From positions 1,364,001-1,428,000 of the forward strand of contig JARGXX010000138.1 of the NCBI GenBank assembly GCA_030374765.1: a DNA stretch of 64,000 nucleotides, read 5' to 3'. The DNA comes from Agarophyton chilense (Eukaryota; Rhodophyta; Florideophyceae; Gracilariales; Gracilariaceae). A program made the translations under genes and the position numbers. The notes under the pieces were generated by a model. It ran no database searches and was not told the origin of the DNA. It saw nothing but the letters and a program-made list of their open reading frames with translations. The first letter of the stretch is position 1. Every line of letters begins with the position of its first letter. Shown here piece after piece: positions 1 to 63,800 of this stretch.

Positions 1-3000
1 GGTGTGAAGTCTTTCGACCATCCGTTAAACTCAACCAATTCAACGAACAGCAATGGAAATTCATCGTCGTCTGTATCTGGCTCCGGACCAGCATCGGCTG
101 AAAGTGACAAAAGAGGAACCCTTTCCTTCAACAACGCAAACCTTGATCGTTCACTGCAAGACTCAACTCTTCTCGGCCCGCTCGTCGATAGCGGTGCACC
201 ATACTCAGCAATCGGTCTATTTGAACTAAATGTTCTAGCAGATCACCTTGGCCTGTCACACAACCCGACACTCAATGCAATCCCGAAGTCACTTGGGGGA
301 TTCACGTGCTGGCAGTATGGTGTCGGAACGCACGCAAGCCCCGCCCGCAAAATTCTAGGGTCAATTGTGCTGAATGCCATAACCGACAACAGTAACACAG
401 TTTGTATAACTCACCTCGTACTCGATGGTTCATCGCAATGGGTGATCGGTCGCAATGTAACCAGTCGAGCGAACATTGAACATATCGGTCGTAACGCACT
501 TGTGTTCCCCTTTCATGAAGAAGAAGATCTTATCTCTCTTGTCGAGCGTTGGTTTCTATCGTTTATAGAGCTATCCAGGTTCCGTCCGTTGACCCAATCA
601 AAGAACGGCTTATCGGTCAACTCCGGCTCTACACTGTCATGTCTCTCGGCAGTGTCTGTCAACCACTCTTCATGGCCTCGTGTCAAACACGTGCTTGACA
701 AAGTTCACAAACACGTTTGCGGACATGCTGCGTTCTCAGACTACAAGGTGTTTCTGGAGCGCAACGGCCTATGGAACGACGTCGTAGCCAAGTATCTTTC
801 AGATGTCGTGAACACCTGCAATGCATGCCACTCCACCTCGCTACCGAAACCATCCAGAAAAGTATCCATTAGCTCTCTATTGAAAGAGTTCAACGAAATA
901 CTGTGTGTAGACCACTTGTTCCTTGAAGGACTCTGCGTCTTTCATTGCATGGACCTCGTCTCACGGTTCTCCGCCGCACGTGTTGTAAGAACCACCTCTC
1001 TCAAAGAGGCAGTCATCGGCTTCGAATCATGCTGGAATTCGCAATTTTGGTACCCAGACTCATTTCTTGCTGACAAAGCGTTTACCACCGGTGACTTCCA
1101 GTCGTATGCCGACTCTCTCGGAATTCCGATTAAGCTTGTTCCCAAGCAACGTCATCACAAAAACCCCATTGAGTCAAAGCACAACATCATACGATCGGTG
1201 TTCTTGCGCTTGAAAGAAAGTGCCGGAGATGATTACATCCCGGAGGTTGCTGCCTATCAAGCAGTCACTATCTCAAATGACTTGTATGGAAACGATGTCA
1301 TGTCCGCATTCGAACTGGCAAAGGGCTTTACCAAACCGATCAACACAAAGCCAGCTGACACCGCTGTTCCCCAGGACGTCATCGACGCTCGTGACCAACT
1401 GCACGCCCGCCGCAAGTTGGCACTGATCCTTAGATCGAAATCGACCGACGAAGTACCGATAGCAACTGGTGACACGGTAGAAATCTTTCAAAAGAAAGAT
1501 TCTGAGAAGCGTGGCAGATGGTCTGAACCGAAGACAGTACTCGCAGTCGATCGCCATGCCCGCTCTATTTCCGTACCTGGCAGTAATGGCCGAGTCATTA
1601 CTGCCACGATTGAAGATGCTCGCCCCGCCATCTCCCCGACATCATTCGCTCAAGTTGTGCAAGATGCAATTGACACTCTCGATGAGTGCATGCCCGTATT
1701 ATCTGACACTGCTCATGATGAAACGCTTTCGACAAACGCCGATGATGACCGAAAGGACGAGTCGCACGTCACACCCGAAGACCCTCAGGACTTTTCCGAT
1801 GACCGCAATCACAGCCCAGCTGTTGGTGACCGAGTTGATGTTTTATGGAATGATGATGGTGTGATATACCCTGGTGCGGTACACTCGCGAGCCGAAATCG
1901 GCAAAGTGACAATACACTACGACAATGGGGACATTGAGAACGATGTAGACCTGAACAGTGTACCGTGGACACCATCTGACACTACCGAAGCCCCGCTTGC
2001 TGCTGCCAGCAGCAATCTGAAAGCTAGGCTACAGGTCACTAGCACTGAAGACACGATACTCTCATCGATGCTAGAGCACTTTAATAATAAGCCTTTTATG
2101 CGGCATCAAGATCAAGGATTTGATCAATACCCGCTCGTCAATGCGTATGCCCGGAAAGAAGAGACCTTTCTGAAGACCTCTCGCGTTGTTTGCATTCGAG
2201 ATATTCCTAAAGGAGCTAACGTCATCAACAGTCATACGCTCTATAAGATCAAGCACAATGACGATGGATCCTTGAAGTTGAAAGCCCGAATTGCGCCGCA
2301 TGGAAACGAAGACGCTCTCAAACACACCCTCAACAAAGACTGCGCCACCTGCTCGCCGACTGGGCTTCGTATCCTAGAATCTGTGGCATCTCTTTTTGGC
2401 TGGACACTTTATAAGGCAGACGTTAAAGCCGCATTCTTACAGACCGGTGCTGCTGAAAGAGATGTGTATGTGAAGCCACCTGCTGAGAGTCACATGCGTG
2501 CGACACAAGTGTGGCTCCTTTTAACTGCTGCGTATGGCTTAGTCAACGCCAACGCTAAATGGCAATCAAAGTCAGATGCCGTGATGCCAGAACTCGGACT
2601 AGAGCAATCCAAGCACATACCCCAGCTTTTCTTCAAGAAAAAGGATGGAAAGCTAGCACTTCTGGTTCCCAAGGTCGTAGATGACCTCAAGGCAGCAGGG
2701 GTAGGAGACCATGCCAAACAGTTTCTCTCAGCCTTTGATCAGAAGTTCAAGTTCGGCACGGTTAACTGCGGACCAGGTCACATGAGGTATTTCGGAATCA
2801 ACACAATCCAGAATGAAGACTTTTCTATCGCAACCAATGCCGACGACAAGCTTGAGGCGATAGGCGAGTGTCCGATCTCTAGACATCGGCGCAAAGAAAG
2901 CTCTGAAATTATCAACGCCATCGAGAAAGCTACGTACGCATCTATCAACAGCTCCATTGGCTGGATTGGAACCACTGCTTCTCCTATTTGTGCATTTTAC

Positions 3001-51408: not shown

Positions 51409-51577
51409 GTCTAAGCCAAATGAAGAAGCCTTCGCTCTCCTTCTTTTCTGGAAGCACAGAAAGAGCTTTGGTGACTTGTTTTGTGGGAATTCGAGACGTG
51501 CACGCACTGCGAGCTGGAAGCACATCTCTGTAATTTGACGTCGAAATACGATTACTGCTGTGTGGTTGAGTTGGTGT

Positions 51578-51783
51578 TGTGCAATACACGATTGCCACCT
51601 GGCACAAAGCCGCCGGCGCTGCATACTAAACCTCACTCTTGCTCCACCCCGAGACACTGGGGACAGAGGAGCAAGAGGGGACACCTTTTGCCCGTTCCAC
51701 CTTCCTCGGTTCCACGGCGCGTTTCAAGTGCATACTAGACACCAGACCAACAGCCCTCCCGCTCTGCGTACGACTGCTTCCCA
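51578..51783 (+). repeat. Copia-2 5' LTR
   Basis: It starts TGTGCAATACACG and ends GACTGCTTCCCA, pairing with 59002-59206. It includes a GGAGCAAGAGGGGACACC segment shared by both copies. Confidence 0.87.
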
Positions 51784-51786
51784 AAA

Positions 51787-51799
51787 TTATGGGCCCAGT
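51787..51799 (+). promoter_or_regulatory. Copia-2 primer binding site for initiator tRNA-Met (internal)
   Basis: TTATGGGCCCA lies just after the LTR and is the exact complement of the TGGGCCCATAA anticodon stem-loop found in eukaryotic initiator tRNA-Met. Drosophila copia and yeast Ty5 prime from half-tRNAs cut in this loop. The likely gag ATG (51789) lies within the site. Confidence 0.7.
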
Positions 51800-53164
51800 G
51801 GCAGGAGCTGCTATGTTTTTCAATCCGACAGACCCGCTAAAGATTAATCCGGCCAAGGATCTACAACAATGGCGCCGCAACGTTTGTCGATGGATGGATA
51901 CTATTTCTACGGCTGTCAAGAAGGGCATCGATCGTCGTCACCAAACAATATCTGCGACTTTTGGTCGACAGCTGTACGGCAAAGCATTACCTAGTGCTCA
52001 GAAATCCGTGGTCGACGAAGCCCAAGAAAAAAAAATGTTTATTACAACCAAAAAGACCAAGTAAAGGCGGTATGCAAAATTGTTGAACTTGTCGCAGTCG
52101 ATCCACCATTTTCTGTTGTTTCTCGTTTGATTTCTTCCTTCAATCGTGTTAAATACTGCCGTCGTCGCAAGGATGAGCCTTTGGCTAGCTTTGTATCATG
52201 TTTCTGCGGCCTGGCTGCCGATCATCTCATGCATGGTGAACTCTCATCTTCGTCTCAGATTGGAGAAGTTCTGGCAATAACGCTACTCAACAATGCATCT
52301 TATAGTGAGGAGACGTTGACCAATGCCAAACTTCAACTCATCTCTCTCTCTAAAGCTTGCATGAGAAGTGGAAGTTATACTGGGGATACCCAGAACCACA
52401 TGAATCTTTTGAAGGTTCAGGAGTCCGTAAACAACCTCCGTGAAATGCTATCGAGGCCTCACCTTAAGATTTTGAGGGGTGATAATCACAATATGACGAA
52501 GGCAAAGCTTTTTGTAACCAAGAGAAGGGTCAATGAAGCGGTCGTTGAGTTCGAGGGAAATCTTACAGACACTCACTTAAAGACCAGCCCAACTCCTTCT
52601 ATCAGTAAGCTCCTTCAACCCTCCCGGAGATGCCGTCTAAACCTGGATGACGCGGTTACAGTCATAGGGAATCTTTCTTTTACCCCTTCGAGCTCTGCTG
52701 CTCACAATACAAGGGAAGATCTTGAAAACATCGTGGGTCAGAAAGTTCAAACTGCTTCATTTGCGATTTCCCAATCCAACCAGAGCGTACTAACTCGCTT
52801 GGGAAACAGGAAGGAGGGAAATGCATCAACCGTGTCTTTCCAACCGGGCAATGCGAAGAGGAAACGCACCGATGCTAAGGCTGGAAAAGGTGGAAAGTCG
52901 TCTTTCTGTTTCGAGTGTGGTGATACCGAGCACATGGCCGGCAATGACTTGTGCCGAAGTTCTTCATTTCTGACAAAAAGAGGAAGCTCGAACGCCAACG
53001 CAACGATTCAGACGGTAGGTCCCAAAATCCTCGTCGTGGAGGAAGACATCCCAGGAAAGATGCCTCCAGAGAACGGAGCCGTGTATCTAACGCGGATTTT
53101 ACGCCAGGCGCCGCCCCATCGAAGCGCAATCATGCCTAAAGTCATGGGTTGGGGCGACTTCTGA
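51789..53164 (+). pseudogene. Copia-2 gag, one frameshift at an A9 run
   Basis: From ATG 51789 (MGPVAGAAMFF, or 51813) the frame encodes a gag N-terminus (LQQWRRNVCRWMD). It is thrown off at a run of nine A (52027-52035). Coding continues in the next frame (KIVELVAVDPPFSVVSRLISSFNRV, DEPLASFVSCF) to a zinc knuckle-like CFECGDTEHMAGNDLC (about 52905) and stops at 53164. The protein packages element RNA. The A run could be an indel or a slip site. Confidence 0.8.
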
Positions 53165-53165
53165 T

Positions 53166-56100
53166 GTGGTTAGTTGTACGAGAGATCCGAACCCCATCAT
53201 TGACATTGGTTGTCCCCATAGTGTGGGGGGAATCGAATCTGCCGCTGCACTATCAATCGCAATGGGCATCCAATTTCACGTTAAAGACCTCGACTGTGAC
53301 CCCTTCTATAACGGTTTTGGTCCAGAATGTTCAAATCCGAAACTCGTATTTGGTATTTGTAGTATCCGATCTAACGGAGAGAACAGACACCTGCGACAGC
53401 GTTCGGACTGCCGATGGGTCGCTTGCGGCGAGGGAAAAGGGGTGGTAGAGCTACAACACCAGCGAGCTGGAAGTGGGGTTTAAGGCCACAACTCGCCAGC
53501 GAGGGTGAACAGTGCAACTGTAAAACGTTGATGGAGCGTAGGTACAAGACGGCTCGTGAAGTGGTTGGGGGCTGACTATCTATTATAGCTCGTCCGGATC
53601 TCCGATTAAGGAATCCTAAGCGAGGAATAGAATAGTCATGATGCCCATGTTGTCTCTTTTACTTGGAGTCGGCGCTCACCTCGGGTACACTACATACTGT
53701 GTGCCAGGGTGAGTGCCCAAATAATACGTAAATAATACCCAGTGGTCAACCACTTAACCAAACCACTGTATGGGTACGATCCCTAATGGAAGTCTAGCTA
53801 CAAAGGGTAGTAAAGCCTGCCATGTGGATCGCCACTACATGCGCCATTGCAAGCCACTCCACTCGTGATACCACGTGTCCCAACACTGTACCCTGCCTCC
53901 TGGCATCCTACGCGGTGTGCCGTTTCATATCACAAGTTTGATGACATCACTCACTTATGAGTTCCAACCGCGACTTCGCGAAAAATCATCCCATCGGATT
54001 CCCCGACGTAGTAGAATACAAGTTCTACATTACGGAAGGCGACGGTCCTCTGCTACTGGGGAACGACATAGTGTCACGTTCGGACCTCATGGGTTCGGAC
54101 AACACGCTCGTAGTGCCCGTTTCGGTCGGAATCTCTCGGGACGACGCAGTTCTGTCAACGTACGTCCTAGGAGAAGAAAATGACCGCCGAACACACTTTT
54201 TCTTCGTCCCTTCGATAACGACGTCGTTCAAATCCTTCTTCTCTTCTCATTCTTCCTTTCTCTCTAGGAATCCTAATCCGATCGCCAAACTATCTGGAAA
54301 GGACGGCATGGATCGGACCCATGCCGGCCGCTTCGCGACAAAGCTTCACTGCCAGTCCCATCTCTCCACCAAGGACATGAAAAAGCTTTGCAGTCGAAGC
54401 GGGATACTAAATCGAACACTTGCTGGTGAGCTCGAACAGGCCTACAATTCTTGCACTTCATGCAAAAGGTCTGGCCGCCCATTACATTCTCGAAATACAT
54501 CACTCAAGAGGATACTGGGTGAGTTCAACGAGCACCTTCAAGTGGATTTCCTATTCATACGCGAGTTTGGAAACATCCCCATTTTGCATATGAAGGATGT
54601 GTCAACTGGTCTCTCCGTTACTGTCTTGATGACTTCAAGGGATATGACTGATACCGCTCGCATGATTGTCGTTCATTGGTTTGATGTCTTTGGGCCTCCA
54701 TCACAATTATCAGGAGACCCATAGTTCAATAACGACTCGATTCAGCGATTGTGGGCCGAGAATCAGATTTTATTCGAACCGCGGCCTGCTCCACGCCACA
54801 GAGAAATTGGAAGCGTTGAATCGAGCAACGAGACAATCCGTGCATTTGCCCAAACGCTCCTTCTCGACGAACCTCACCTGAGGGAAACTCGTCAAGTGTA
54901 TCGCACTGACTTTGAGATCTTCTCCAAAGCCACATTCCTGAAGAATGTGCTGTATGGTAACAAGTCATTCAGCAGATTCGAGCTTGTTCACGGCTACAAT
55001 CCTTCTGTTTCTGGGTTACCCAAGCAGATGCTACCAGAGAAGCTCCTTTCTTCCTACCACGAACAAGTTTCCAGGCGTGCCGTACACACCTTACTTCGTA
55101 CCAAACCATCGTATCCTTTATCAAAACACCTGTTGGCACCAACCACTTCGGTGTATGTCGTTAAGAGACTTGGAAAACATGGTCCCTGGTACAAGGCATT
55201 CGTGGTCACTACTACTGACTATATAGTATCGATCTCTCCGAGCAAAAATCTCCAGGGACCGAAGCATCAGATCGCCTACAAGGACATAAGGTTAGTCCCG
55301 CGTTCATCCCTTCTACAGGAACTGGACAAACAGGAGTTTGAATATTCGTCCTTCCCGCACACTAACGTCCAAGAAGAACCGATCCCAGTCCCTAAAGAAA
55401 GGAATGAGGCCGATCGTTCTTCTCTTCCGCCCCTCAAAGATGAAGAAATCACAGACTTCCCTGTGCAGAACATAGAAGACCCTTTGAGTTTCGACCCAAA
55501 CATATCGGACGAACCAAATTTGTGGTCTCTGCATCCGTTCTCTTCATCCTTCTTCGCGTCGAAGGAAGACACAACGGCTGTGAACGCACCCTCAATGGAT
55601 GTCGGGAACCCTCAACTCTGCGGATATGTTGGAGACACCTCGCTTAGGTTCCCTACAATTGGCGAAAAACAATTGTCTTCGGAGCAAAGAATTCTCGAGC
55701 AGATCAAGAATATCATTGGAGACCAACCCGCCACACAAGCTAAGCTACAGTTCGCCCCGCGATGGATAATCGACAAGGCCATCGAAGCAGAGAAGAGAAA
55801 CTACTCTGAAGCCGAGGCATACAAGCCGATCTCCATCAAAGGACTCCCGCGAAATGCAAATATCATATCCTCCCATCTCTTCTTCGTGACGAAGTTGGAT
55901 GGAGAGAATGGTAAGCTCAAGCTCAAGTGCCGTCTAGTACCACATGGAAATCGGGATTCCCAAAAGGACAACATTCGATCTGACTCCTCTACGGCTCAAT
56001 TAACCTGCATCAGACTTCTGCTTTCCCTCGCAACTTTACTACACCTCACCTTTGGAAGCATTGACATCTCTAGAGCGTATCTGCAATCAGGCGACCTCAA

Positions 56101-57331
56101 ACGAGATATATACATGCAGCCTCCAAAGGGATGGACACAGTTCGTAGACGAAGTATGGAAGCTACTCAAGCCAGCTTATGGCCTAGTAGATTCCGGTCGT
56201 CTCTGGCAGCTATGCATCGAGGAATGGTTGTGCGACTACGGATTCCGTACTGTCCCTGGTATGCCACAGATGTTCATATTGTCGGACGACCATGCATGTA
56301 TATCCCTACTCCTGGCCAAATTGGTGGACGATCTTCTCCTTGCCGGATCAAAGAGTGAGGAGAACAAATTCTCCAAGGCTCTCTAAGCTCGCTTCAAGAT
56401 TGGCAGAGCACTCTTTAAGAACGAGATTATTTTCAGCCGCCCTTGGATTCGGCAATTTGAAGACTTCTCGATCGAGATCTCTATAGCAGAGTTTATGGAA
56501 AAGCTCGCCCCCATTTCGATCTCGTCGGATAGGAGGAAGCAGTCCGAGGATCTATGCACCCAACAAGAAGTCCGATAAATCCAGTCTCTTGCTGGAAAAC
56601 TCAAACTCCTCGGGCATGGTGTGCTGCCTCAAGCCGCGTACGCTGCCAGCTTCATGCAGCAGCTGGTCCCAGAGATGCGCGTTAGGCATCTTCTGCAGGC
56701 AAACCAGATCCTCAACCTTGTCTTAAAGCTACGTCCGATAGTGAAGTACATGGCTCCGAGATCCGCGATGGTATCGGATAACATGAACGCTTGCCACATA
56801 GTGACGTTCTCTGACGCCAGCACTGAAAAATCATCCTACGGCCAAACTAGCTACATCAGTGGCATCGCCTTCTCCCAAGGTAAGAACGTTCCCTACCACA
56901 TTGTCGACTGGCATAGCGCGAAGCAAGGACGCATATTCTTTAGTTCAATTGGTGCTTAATTTCTTGCGGCAGCAGAATCCACAAACAGATCCATACTACT
57001 TAGGGAATGCATGGAAGTTCTTGCATCGGATTTCGGTTCGCTCGTCCTTTACGTCGACTCATTTGGTTTGTACTCAACGATCACTACCCTTCACGAATGC
57101 CAAGACTACCGATTGCGCCCCACCGTGTCGCGCCTCCGTGACTCCTTCGAAGCTGGAGACATATCCTCCATGGGTTGGATAGCGGGAAGTCTCAACTTAG
57201 CCGACGCGTTAACAAAGGGCAGTCATCATTCATTTCTTCAATTGAACAAAGCTATGGTTCAAGGAATACTCAGCAAAGGTATCATATCTACTATCGGCCA
57301 CTATCTTGGGGCATGCAACTCTAAAGCTTAG
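53166..57331 (+). pseudogene. Copia-2 pol (PR-IN-RT-RH), broken
   Basis: Protease is recognised from IIDIGCPHSVGGIESA (53205 on) and, after an insertion, GPLLLGNDIVSRSDLMGSDNTL. The integrase has an H..H..CTSC finger and QVDFLF. RT contains GSIDISRAYLQSG, KPAYGLVDSGRLW and LVDDLLLAG (LVDD replacing YVDD). RNase H ends in GWIAGSLNLADALTKGS and the frame stops at 57331. Nonsense codons at 54722 (TAG), 56384, 56576 and 56957 (all TAA) interrupt one frame; a change of frame follows the 53.4-53.9 kb insertion. The element is not autonomous. Confidence 0.87.
53420..53870. other. Non-coding insertion in the Copia-2 protease
   Basis: Protease coding (ICSIRSNGENRHL) stops near 53400 and resumes near 53890 (GVPFH, then EGDGPLLLGN). 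The roughly 450 bp between has no ORF. Short pieces (GGGGTTTAAGGCC, GTGCCAGGGTGAG) resemble parts of the Gypsy-B LTR, so it may be a diverged solo LTR. Its exact ends were not found. Confidence 0.45.
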
Positions 57332-57351
57332 GATCTAATATGGCAAAGATA

Positions 57352-58701
57352 TCAAACCCCGATTGAAGAACCTTCTTTGTGACGACTTTTCTTCCCGCCG
57401 CGAGTGCGTTTCCCATCCTTCCTCTCTTGTAGCAAGCGCACTACGCGACAGTCCGCAATGTGACTGAAAGAACGGTCTGATCCTATACAGGACTCCAGGG
57501 CAACCTGTGTGAGATCCAAGTGATACTTCTCCACTGGACCAACTATGACGTTGCGTTCCCCATCTATGCAAATTGCATACAGGTATCCGTCAATAGCCTG
57601 AATACTGGCAAAGAAGTCTTTTTCGCTATCGAGAAAGTCATCCAAATCAAAGTTTTCTTCTCGATGTCCAGTCCCATCACGAAGATACTCGAGGCTAACA
57701 ACACGGATCCTTTACTTCACAAACCCCTGCATATCCTAGAGGTCCCGAAACTTCCCTCGAACCTCCCTTTGCGCCTCCCGGTTCCAATGCTCAATCTCGA
57801 CAACATCATCAAACCCAAGACCTGAAATGGCGTTCAGATATACCTCATTATCGTCTGAGTTCTTCCTAACCCTAACGATGAGATACGCCCAATACTCTTC
57901 AGCCTTCTCGGTCCCAATGGTGAGCGCTGATGCACTACTTAAGGAATCTTTAAGGCATAGAAATGTCTCGTCGCGGAACTGCACAGAAGAATGACGGAGA
58001 TGTAAACTTCGGATGCGAGAAGACGGCGAGCGCGCTTCGGGTTGAAGCACGGTGAGCCTTTGCCCTGGCCGTGCGCTGCAAGTAGCAAGGATGCTCTTGA
58101 TCGCCTCGTACCGATCCTTTCCACCTCAGTGCAAGGTTCCTTCGGCTCCTTCGCCACCATATGTCACCATACTTTTCGTTGCATCACCTTCGACTGCCTG
58201 ACTGTACTCGATTCGGAAAGTGTGCATATCTATGCGGCACACGACGCTCGTGTCATGCTCCAAAGGATAGAATTGGTCCTTGATCTCACCCCGACCTCTT
58301 CGTGACAACCACACCTTCTCTATCATCCAAGGGTTGTACTCAATGGCTATATCGGGATCTTCGTCGTCATTCAAGGCCTCTGTAAGGCCCAATCAAAAGA
58401 GCATCAACTCCCAAAACTAAGTGCCCCGAAATTGCCGAATGAAATGCGTTATCTTCCGCCCAGGCAATATAATGGCTTCGTTCTCGCTAAATCGCACCAG
58501 GTTGTTGCTACCTTCGAATGTGATTAAGAAGACTTTCGGCACGCCACGCTCCGGTTTGGAACAAAGAAGCCTCACGATATTCTTGCCTAAATACTGGTCA
58601 AGATATGTTTCTCTCGTAATTCTCGCCGCTTTGCGCACAAGTTGGCGCTTTGGGGTTTTTCCGCCGACAGATTTGCGAGCCGTCTGCTTAGTACGAGCCA
58701 T
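57352..58701 (-). pseudogene. Copia-2 antisense gene with histone H3 tail N-terminus (decayed)
   Basis: On the minus strand, one 450-codon frame starts at ATG 58701 and stops at 57352, just 20 bp from the convergent pol stop. Its first residues are MARTKQTARKSVGGKTPKRQ followed by LVRKAAR, matching the H3 tail at 20 of 26 positions. R2, K4, R8, K9, S10, K14, K23 and R26 are kept; K27 is not. The rest is not H3: acidic and basic stretches, YLGKNIVRLL, an aromatic-rich region (NPWMIEKVWLSRRGRGEIKDQF), YWAYLIVRVRKN and a basic end (KRTRGGKKSRHK). In-frame stops at 58417, 58393, 58126, 57736 and 57712 mean this copy cannot make the full protein; no frameshift is needed. A 94-aa product from the first part remains possible. 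Confidence 0.72.
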
Positions 58702-58990
58702 CGAGAAGATCACCTGAGCAGAAGTCTACCACGCTGTCCGAAGAGAGGTGACACGTCGACTTCCGCGTCAAAGGTTTTCCCAAGAGTGATGGAAGCAGTG
58801 ACGTCGCGAATATGGCAAAGTGGCGCATGCGTGTCAAATCGAGAAGAAAGAGAGAGGTGGTCGCAAATCGCTGAAGGCCCGCACAGCCCGTGACGAAGAC
58901 GCGCGAAAGAAATATCGCGTTTAGGGGCAGGAAGCGAGTTGCCGGGCATTTGACCGCACTCCAAAAAATCTGATTCTATTCTATCGCGCC

Positions 58991-59001
58991 AAGGCGGGGA
59001 G
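58991..59001 (+). promoter_or_regulatory. Copia-2 polypurine tract
   Basis: AAGGCGGGGAG directly abuts the 3' LTR start TGTGAAAT, as expected for the plus-strand primer. Confidence 0.75.
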
Positions 59002-59208
59002 TGTGAAATACACGATTGCTACCTGGCAAAATGCCGCCGGCGCTGCATTCTAAACCTCACTCTTGCTCCACCCCGAGACACTGGGCTTGGAGGAGCAAGA
59101 GGGGACACCTTGTGCCCGTTCCACCTTCCTCGGTTCCACGGCGCGTTGCAATGCATACTAGACACCAGACCAACAGCCCTCCCGCTCTGCGTACGACTGC
59201 TTCCCATA
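59002..59208 (+). repeat. Copia-2 3' LTR
   Basis: It is a direct repeat of 51578-51783 beginning TGTGAAATACACG and ending TTCCCA or TTCCCATA, followed by GGTGT, the putative target duplication. Confidence 0.85.
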
Positions 59209-59216
59209 GGTGTGCT

Positions 59217-60879: not shown

Positions 60880-63800
60880 TTGGGGAACACAAATCGGTCG
60901 GCTCTGAGATTCTCTCAACTGTGAAAGAGCCCGCCTTTACTTTTGTCAGAGCATCGCGCCCATGCTCTTGTATCAGGTGCTCCCTCGGTTCGCGACCCTT
61001 GGGAAGTTCTGCAACGGTCAATTGATCCTTTCTTTGAATTAATCTAACTGTCAGTCTTTGCGACCTTAACACCGCCCCATGCAACTTAAGCTCTCTAAGA
61101 TTCATTACGAAACCAATTTGCAAAGCTTTTGTGCTTCTGTTTTCAACTTCCTGGCCTGCGAAGTGCACAGAAAATCCTCAAGTAGGTCGGGTAGATCCTG
61201 GTGAATTGTTTCAATGGCCTCCCAGGTTCGATCAATATGGTCGGGTAACCCTTGCCATTTCACTAGGATTTCGAAAGTTGTTCCATGCCTTCGAATGTCT
61301 TTTAGTGCTTCCGCGGTTTGGTATGTAGTTTCCGAATGTTCTGCGTATTGTAGAAGCTCTGGATCCACGACTTGATCCTGTATATCGCTTCTGTACAGGA
61401 TCATTCGTCGAGTGTGCACTGATTCCTTCTTATCGTTTAGCAGGTCTGTTACCTCTTAGACCTATTCTGATACTGCTTTAGTAACTTGCCGTGGTCCTTT
61501 TCATTGCACGAGTAATTTATGGCCTTTTTTCTGCGTTTGTCGAACCAAAACAAAATCTCCGATCTCGAATCGCGCATGAGTTACGTTGGTCTTTGAATTG
61601 TGCCGTTCAATGGTTCTTTGTTGAATTTTCAATTCTCGGTGAGCCAATCCTCGATGTACACCTTCCAAGGAGTCCTGTCTACGGCTGATATTTATTAGCT
61701 GCCGAGCCCGGATCTCGGTGAACTGTTGCACATGACTCGGATCTCTGAGTGAGAGAGATTGTAGAAGTGGCCTTGATGTCAGGCGTTCGGTATAAACATC
61801 TATTGGTGTGCGATAGACTCCTAGGATGCCTTGGTCTCGTGGACCTAGGCACTTCAGCGGTGCATGATTGATGATACTCTGCACACACTCCGATACGCTC
61901 GCCCAGTCCTTCGGTGCGAGTTTTAATTCGTGAAGCACGGCTTTTCAAGCTCTTTGCACCTCCCGGCACACTCTCTCTACCGAACCATTCGCCCACGGTG
62001 AGTACGGCGTACTGAAATGGTGGCTGATCTTCAGTTCCTGGGCCAATAGACTGAAGAGCGTGTTTTTGAAGTGCAAACCTTGGTCCGGTACCATCCACTT
62101 CATGACACCGCATGTAGCAACCCAAGTTGCAATGGCTTTCGCTGCCGCTTCGGCTGTGGCTCGTGCAGTGGGCCATATCCAAATGAAGGATGACAAATCA
62201 TTTCGGATTAATAGAAGGTACATCAGATTGCTTGTGCTTGGGCCCATGTACAAGAAGTCGATGTGGACGACTTCATTCGGTTTTGGCCGATGTATGCTTG
62301 TCCCAAGCGGTCTTTGGATAACGTGACCTTTGCGAGTGACAAGGCAGTGTAAACAACTTTTAACAAACATGTCAATTACTTCATACATCTCTTCCCAAGA
62401 AAATTGTTCTTGCACAATTCTTTCCGTCGCTTCAATTCCGCGATGACCACTAGCTCCGCAGTGATATAGGATCAAAACTTTGAGTTTTAACTCTTCGGCT
62501 GGACGCGGCAGCCAAATGCGTCCCCGTTCGCGATACAGTCCATCATCACCTAAAGCGAGGCCCTCAGGCACTCTTTGTACACTTTGAGCCTCTCTAATCT
62601 GGTCAATGAAAGGCCACTGGATGGTTTCAGTGGCAGGAATGATCTGATCCGCTGTCTGAACCAAGCTGCACACCATATTTGTGGGAAATTTGTGCTTGCG
62701 ATACCCTTTGATCCATCTCGTTAGCATATCAGCACATACATTTATTTCACCCGCAATGCGTTCGATGTGATAATGGAAGCGCGAGAGAAAAATGGCCCAC
62801 CTTTGTACCTTTGCTACAACATGTCGTCCTAATGAAGGGATCAGTTCACACGGCGCAAAAACAAACAACAGGTTTCGATGATCTGTAAAGAAGTGCACTG
62901 GGGGCTTGTCCAGGAACAGGTAGTCAAGCTTCTCAAATGCTTGAAAGATTTCAAAGGCTTCCTGTTCATAGGTGCTCCAATTGCACTACGCTCCTTTGAA
63001 TGCACCCCCCAGAAAAGCAAGTGGTTCATGCTCCTGTTCCTTTACAGGTTTTTTGAGACCTTCCGGATTGATCTGCGTTACCACAGCAGCACAATGGTTG
63101 TTGGAAGCATCCGTATAAACACACAGGTCCTTTCCTCTTCGGGGGTAGGATAAGAAGACGGCATTACGCAAGCTGTCCTGTAGATCTCTGAAGGCCTCCT
63201 TGTGTTCCTGGCCCCAGGACAGGGTGCCCAATTGCATCCATTTAATTGCCCACTTCTTCCTCTTGTCTTCCTTGGTGTATTCTTCCTCGAGCACTGTAAC
63301 CAAGGATGCAACTCGTCGTTCATATTCGGGGATCGAGATTGCCATCCATCGGCAACAGTGTATGAATTCACACAATTCCTCCGCGAACTCCGGTTCTCGC
63401 ATATCTTTCAGACCTTGCACGTTGGTTGGGTCCATGCTGCATCCGTCTTTGTTTATAACTCTTCCACACCATCTTATCTCGCGGTCAAACAGCTTGAACA
63501 TTTTTGCCGACAGAAAGAGATGGGTTTCCTTACATATCTCAAAGAATCGCCCTAGAATTGAGAGCAACTCCTTTTCATCGCGCGCATGGATGTTAAAATC
63601 GTCGATCCATGCTTCCAGTTTCTTTCGTAGCTCTTTGAAGAGAGGTTCAATGGTTGACTGGAAATGGGCTGCTGCATTCGTCAACCCGGGTATGGCTCTT
63701 GTTGAGGAGTAAGTTCCGTTCGGGCAGACAACACCACAGGAATCATATGAGTCTGGATGCAATGGGAGCTGTCAATAGCCGTGAACGAAGTAAATCACCG

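Follow-up and report, generated by a model that had tools for sequence, protein, structure and literature searches.

An antisense frame with a histone H3-like N-terminal tail in a Ty1/copia retrotransposon of the red alga Agarophyton chilense

The window, that is, the whole 64-kb stretch of Agarophyton chilense DNA analyzed here, contains a Ty1/copia retrotransposon at positions 51578-59208 (Table 1). Its long terminal repeats (LTRs) are 93-94% identical and form a direct repeat pairing the 5' LTR with 59002-59206; GGTGT flanks the element at both ends, so that paired LTRs and a target-site duplication are both present. The pol region includes a Ty1/copia-type reverse transcriptase. No Pfam match was obtained for the open reading frame (ORF) preceding it, the place relevant to an integrase upstream of reverse transcriptase, or for the final pol-side ORF. 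Antisense to pol, between the end of that last ORF (57331) and the 3' LTR, lies the frame considered here, the antisense additional ORF (aORF). The sequence-only reading had placed this frame inside a bounded copia element, on the strand opposite to pol and before the 3' LTR, and the LTRs, the GGTGT duplication, and the RVT_2 match all agree with it. A repeat of about 660 bp is nested in the element (53363-54019) and also occurs at loci L009, L012, L020, and L023 with 84-93% identity. Near the copia element, at window positions 61105-62898 on the minus strand, is a gypsy-type element in which an integrase is accompanied by a chromodomain (Pfam Chromo, E 8.6e-8). The genome around the window encodes light-harvesting proteins (9 matches on 7 contigs) and phycobilisome linkers (13 matches on 7 contigs), a gene content that fits a red alga and speaks against an oomycete host.

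Table 1. Features of the copia element and its antisense frame (window coordinates)
Feature	Position	Strand	Remarks
Target-site duplication GGTGT, 5' copy	51573..51577	.	Partner 3' copy at 59209-59213
5' LTR of copia element	51578..51785	+	Alignable to 51783; last two bases from the duplication
pol part with Ty1/copia-type reverse transcriptase (RVT_2)	54749..56386	+	Pfam PF07727, E 3.3e-21
Final pol-side ORF	57011..57331	+	By eye, end of copia RNase H region (...LADALTK...)
aORF with H3-like tail	57352..58701	-	Pseudogene here, 5 internal stops
Basic C-terminus	57355..57429	-	By eye, NLS-like (candidate nuclear localization signal)
Conserved Asp position, frame residue 388	57538..57540	-	Gly in window copy; D in 24/26 copies
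Conserved His position, frame residue 375	57577..57579	-	Tyr in window copy; H in 21/26 copies
Conserved Cys of Cys-His-Asp motif, frame residue 249	57955..57957	-	C in 25/28 copies
Codon at H3 K27 position	58618..58620	-	Ile; I, V, M, or L in 28/30 aligned copies
H3-like N-terminal tail, Met plus residues 1-26	58621..58701	-	20/26 identical to host H3
Stretch from aORF start codon to 3' LTR	58702..59001	-	Candidate antisense-promoter site; alignable in other copies
3' LTR of copia element	59002..59208	+	Alignable to 59206; end from the duplication

The aORF opens with MARTKQTARKSVGGKTPKRQLVRKAARI on the minus strand from 58701 and is still 1350 bases long. The 450-codon frame initially described is nevertheless not open in the window copy: stops at residues 95, 103, 192, 322, and 330 leave 129 codons as the longest open piece. 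Searches of the 79.8-Mb genome assembly that contains the window found DNA matches to the frame in at least 45 stretches at at least 40 loci, the locus count being a lower bound, since 40 of 53 candidates were scored (the window's locus among the 40). Codon 1 is covered by 25 aligned copies and is ATG in 24 of them, and pol and the aORF are collinear at 8 of the 19 non-window loci, each fetched at 9.9 kb. Related elements thus carry the frame, the absence of which had been named as grounds for dismissing it, and no locus among the 40, that of the window included, encodes the full antisense protein intact; the longest open stretch has 377 codons. Protein-level matches in the genome numbered 111, including the gypsy type described below and two host H3 genes. 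A protein-database search with the copia protein, which required shared 5-residue words, gave no match, and no relatives of the aORF were found on viral contigs.

After the initiator methionine, 20 of 26 residues of the window copy are identical to the genome's own H3 (L001), while the runner-up among ungapped H3-tail matches in all six frames of the window reaches 10 of 26. The copy with the longest open stretch (L009) matches H3 chains in the PDB over approximately residues 1-30, with an E value of about 1e-5. Chance similarity to H3 can be rejected on these grounds, and an H3-tail sequence is thus present inside a mobile-element protein. The window tail keeps K4, K9, S10, K14, and K23, just as the sequence-only reading had claimed, and has R in place of K18. 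Its likeness to H3 stops at R26, and position 27 is I instead of K. The same reading had seen nothing like the H3 core after about residue 26, and a histone-fold core is indeed absent: the H3 match of L009 stops at residue 25-32, and no Pfam match follows. Across the family, 27 aligned copia tails match H3 at between 12 and 21 of 26 residues. K4 is kept in 25/28 copies, K9 in 25/29, K14 in 21/29, and K23 in 25/30; K18 is replaced by R in 22/30, and residue 22 is mostly G, not the T of H3. Position 26 is R in 21 of 30 copies, K in 6, and I in 3. At position 27, the same number of copies has I (21), V (5), M (1), L (1), T (1), and D (1), and H3 residues 28-30 differ as well in most copies.

The tree of 28 aORF rows is star-like with long tips, indicating that most changes reflect decay after insertion; for this reason, changes private to one copy were compared with changes common to three or more copies. 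The comparison covered two-state columns only, without ancestor reconstruction, in 32 of the 40 copies, after removal of 4 that were partial and 4 that were nearly identical to others. Private changes comprised 192 nonsynonymous and 46 synonymous ones, those common to two copies 91 and 28, and those common to three or more copies 72 and 52. The private and three-or-more classes differ in the aORF frame (Fisher p = 1e-5, with columns treated as independent and recurrent mutation as a possible contributor), while the same test in the other five frames gave 0.46, 0.02 (opposite direction), 0.46, 0.005 (a frame that shares third positions), and 0.71. Stops over the 32 rows, terminal ones included, number 160 in the aORF frame versus 217-826 in the other five. 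Noncoding decay alone is disfavored by this frame-specific shared variation and by the lower number of stops; purifying selection acted on the aORF frame before the copies decayed. Older protein relatives, 39-57% identical, show dN/dS values of 0.28 to 0.56 over five estimable stretches of at least 127 codons from four loci.

A protein search of the genome also reached open 471-codon stop-to-stop frames with 24-25% identity to the copia aORF. At L049 and L050, these frames are open over 424 codons from an ATG and lie in antisense orientation beyond the 3' end of a gypsy-type integrase, which, rather than LTRs, is the basis of their class assignment. The copia and gypsy aORF proteins are homologous, aligning from residue 1 with 23% identity (BLASTP E 9e-16). 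The N-terminus of L049, MAVTRQRVRAQRTRRVPRSHVRGLAMRV, aligns gap-free to the copia tail, with a high score at offset 0 only among 13 offsets; out of 100,000 shuffles, 8 reached the score obtained against L009, 93 that against L012, and 99 that against host H3. The L049 tail has no lysine and carries Val at position 27. An older gypsy relative, L053, has Lys at position 4, and L052 lacks most of the tail. Protein-database searches with the gypsy protein and with the family alignment, again requiring shared 5-residue words, returned P0003 alone, a protein 98% identical to L049 that starts after the tail; its source name, GEZJ01002355.1, is of the kind given to transcript records. Comparisons between young gypsy copies reveal no constraint (L049/L050, dN 0.013 and dS 0.010; L049/L051, 0.011 and 0.010), but constraint is evident in the older pair L049/L053 (dN 0.14 and dS 0.37). 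That copia and gypsy-type elements of the same genome both carry such genes suggests that the gene passed from one element class to the other, as might be expected of an accessory gene that is useful.

Other members of this group differ in extent. Five copies of the gypsy-type antisense gene (C96, C88, C77, C100, and C71) are missing the same internal part; each lies in a stop-free 276-codon frame and is 94-97% identical to L049 over the first 129 residues of the latter. A wider family with the Cys-His-Asp module, related to L062, has 83 genome matches (e.g., C4:951278-951808 and C10:797204-797722), some of them in open frames of 477-525 codons. In two members of the wider family, L064 and L065, the N-terminal parts contain Ser-rich stretches, and inspection by eye revealed nothing like the H3 tail.

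The body of the protein carries a conserved Cys-His-Asp motif: in the family alignment, the Cys stands in a CLQASLANA-like context, the His in DHxVxVD, and the Asp in ILDxVE. Each of the three positions is kept in most copia copies (Table 1), the window copy lacks the His and the Asp, and the motif is also kept in the rows of other families that cover those columns. A pseudo-enzyme, with the motif lost in the copia type, was considered because Tyr replaces His in the window copy and L009, and was rejected, as most copies keep the motif. The order of the three residues suits a papain-like peptidase. No Pfam match was found for the copia, gypsy, or P0003 protein, and no peptidase match in Pfam or the PDB; profile matches of other rows were weak and mutually unrelated. 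A single-sequence fold model of P0003 had a pLDDT of 35, too low for use. Basic C-termini are present in several relatives, as in the window copy.

How old is the tail? Where its amino acids agree with H3, the share of identical codons is 0.387, 0.336, and 0.271 for three host H3 genes, whereas the codon use of the element itself predicts 0.314, 0.306, and 0.321; the highest share (0.387, for L001) was obtained with nonindependent copies. When 6 selected copies were compared with each of the 3 genes (18 comparisons), the dN between tail and host H3 was 0.18-0.30, and the dS is at least 1.6 in 5 comparisons and not estimable in 13. The residues have therefore been retained while synonymous codons are near chance, which disfavors a recent insertion of host H3 DNA. 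The possibility of a recent, isolated H3 insertion with nothing conserved downstream, which the sequence-only reading had set against its own proposal, is disfavored on both counts, given the near-chance codon agreement and the downstream homology to the gypsy relative. That reading's suggestion that the element captured the 5' end of a host H3 gene remains plausible; what changes is its timing, as codon randomization and the gypsy relative point to an old event. Random synonymous codons would likewise result if the capture were younger and the donor H3 differed in its codons, yet we consider this less likely because the distant gypsy relative exists. The tail is not better conserved than the body across decayed copies: the mean share of the commonest residue is 0.776 in the tail versus 0.795 in the body, and 285 of 395 body windows are as conserved as the tail or more.

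H3 fragments occur elsewhere in the genome. A mobile element at L007 (approximately 1510-1637, minus strand) contains an antisense H3 5' fragment, frameshifted, that extends from the start codon to about residue 42 and is followed by GTGAGG, a possible splice donor. L008 is alike over 1.6 kb, has only the later H3 part (approximately 1501-1590), and encodes a hAT dimerization domain on the opposite strand. In this genome, the L007/L008 fragment appears to represent a separate event in which the 5' end of an H3 gene was captured. Further H3 matches lie on C77 and C31 and twice on C75.

The explanation that we favor, at roughly even confidence, is that the frame is a degenerate copy of an ancient accessory gene, encoded antisense downstream of pol in LTR retrotransposons of this alga, whose product may have used its tail on chromatin. 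It builds on the tail itself, the long retention of its residues, the past selection on the frame, and the homology to an open antisense gypsy gene. The undecayed gene would encode about 450 residues: an H3-like N-terminus, a middle region, a Cys-His-Asp peptidase-like domain, and a basic C-terminus. Removal of the initiator methionine is expected when residue 2 is Ala, as it is here, and would leave ARTKQTARKS as a free N-terminus, as in H3; several H3-tail binders need a free N-terminus. The protein would enter the nucleus and offer its tail to host factors that bind the H3 N-terminus (readers, methyltransferases, and demethylases), which might then be occupied by a decoy or, with the tail as bait, be brought to the peptidase-like domain. 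Such engagement of host factors would weaken silencing of the element; the part of this proposal in which we have least confidence is that the effect is counter-silencing and not, for instance, targeting of integration. Several of the observations above weigh against it. None of the scored copia loci is intact; the star-like tree makes the selection signal depend on few shared sites, to which recurrent mutation could add; the tail does not surpass the body in conservation; the body occurs without the tail in L052 and P0003, and the L049 tail is lysine-free; and the young gypsy copies evolve without constraint.

Alternatively, a fragment of an H3 gene may have become the 5' end of the aORF, adding a start codon and basic residues only and being amplified with the element. 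The star-like tree, the unexceptional conservation of the tail, and the existence of tail-less relatives are all compatible with such a passive relic, as is the other H3 fragment found in a hAT element of this genome, frameshifted in the copy examined. Yet the best-preserved copies still agree with host H3 at 20-21 of 26 residues despite synonymous codons at about chance, and residues too should have been lost from a passive fragment this old. We regard this scenario as unlikely, though foremost among the alternatives.

The residue at position 27 raises the possibility of an oncohistone-like inhibitor of PRC2. Here, the tail, which keeps A24, A25, and R26 followed by Ile or Val, would sit in an EZH-type methyltransferase as an unmethylatable substrate and block silencing of the element by H3K27me3. 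PRC2 is inhibited by H3 that carries Met or Ile at position 27 and, in the same manner, by EZHIP, and it prefers Arg directly before the target lysine, as described in portions of PMC6513997; H3 K27I occurs in leukemia (PMC6562757). In another red alga, Cyanidioschyzon merolae, H3K27me3 covers half of the repetitive elements according to a section of PMC5405695, and the A. chilense genome has two VEFS-box and two preSET_CXC matches, that is, PRC2-type domains. The aORF fits such a role at the sequence level in that position 27 is I or M in 22 of 30 copies and V or L in 6 more, with R or K before it in 27 of 30. The likeness to H3, however, ends exactly at position 27, so that this residue may belong to the fusion partner, and residues 28-30 are also unlike H3 in most copies. 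Val, moreover, occupies the position in five copies and in gypsy L049, and to our knowledge, Val at H3 position 27 is not a strong PRC2 inhibitor. This mechanism appears improbable, ranking after the passive relic. A compound version is a little more doubtful still: an anti-silencing gene derived from the host's own H3 tail, with an H3-like tail already in the common ancestor of the copia and gypsy versions, in which the change of K27 to Ile or Val would trap PRC2 and the peptidase-like domain would act on captured factors or tails.

The Cys-His-Asp domain suggests another role for the tail. Cleavage of the H3 tail between residues 21 and 22 is known for some papain-like peptidases. If the domain were a peptidase that cuts H3 tails, its own N-terminus could be a built-in pseudo-substrate that holds it inactive or serves as its first cleavage site. 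The conservation of the motif in copia copies and other families would suit this model, and residue 22, at the clipping site, is mostly G instead of T. Profile and fold searches, in contrast, give no support for a peptidase, and the gypsy form keeps the motif yet has lost most of its likeness to the tail. We consider this model very unlikely. Finally, that the antisense RNA matters rather than the protein, through double-stranded RNA or copy-number control and with the frame incidental, accords with the antisense promoters and RNAs known in other LTR elements, for which parts of PMC7264820 propose a silencing role, but is made highly improbable by the frame-specific selection and the protein homology to the gypsy gene at 23% identity.

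The accessory gene that we propose can be compared with known H3 mimics and with known antisense genes. In SNAG-domain factors such as Snail and GFI1, a peptide at the N-terminus mimics that of H3 and so holds LSD1; the peptide is short and loosely H3-like, whereas the aORF keeps K4, K9, K14, and K23 each in at least 21 of 28-30 copies. EZHIP and H3 K27M/K27I share with the aORF an Arg followed by Met or Ile at the K27 position, but in the passages on EZHIP in PMC6513997 and PMC12713659 the likeness is a short H3-like peptide near the C-terminus, while that of the aORF covers the first 26 residues. Influenza NS1 is a viral H3-tail mimic that engages machinery recognizing H3K4, as part of PMC12937675 relates. 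The NS1 mimic is C-terminal, whereas the aORF match of 20/26 lies at the true N-terminus of a protein in a retrotransposon.

Among antisense genes, HBZ of HTLV encodes a bZIP protein without an H3 tail that acts on transcription. Like the aORF, it lies at the 3' end of an LTR element, and an antisense promoter is located in the HTLV 3' LTR (PMC7264820, in part). Antisense accessory genes of plant LTR retrotransposons are well described and of unknown function in the sections of PMC7264820 devoted to them. The plant aORF-3R genes (Grande gene23, RIRE2, and Retand TRP28) are likewise antisense between pol and the 3' LTR and, like the algal aORF, are found across family copies, are suspected of a nuclear role, and have an old origin, according to portions of PMC7264820 and PMC11963269. 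The word "histone" is absent from the main texts of both sources. The algal aORF differs from them in its H3 tail at the start, its copia and gypsy-type relatives in one genome, and its Cys-His-Asp body. A Gag-derived protein has been termed a case of histone mimicry (PMC8121366), but the likeness described in part of that source concerns the fold and the Dengue capsid, not the H3 tail, and we did not count it as a precedent. Among the open-licence papers listed in literature searches, none described a histone mimic from a retrotransposon or transposon in its title or the start of its abstract. Antisense accessory genes and histone mimics are each known separately; here they are joined in a retrotransposon.

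Overall, the aORF directly names a candidate target for an antisense accessory protein, namely, whatever binds the H3 N-terminal tail, which makes the question open to experiment. If the tail works as proposed, this would be a case of a retroelement exploiting the chromatin substrate of its host to counteract silencing by chromatin, with the change at K27 as a natural counterpart of the oncohistones of tumors.
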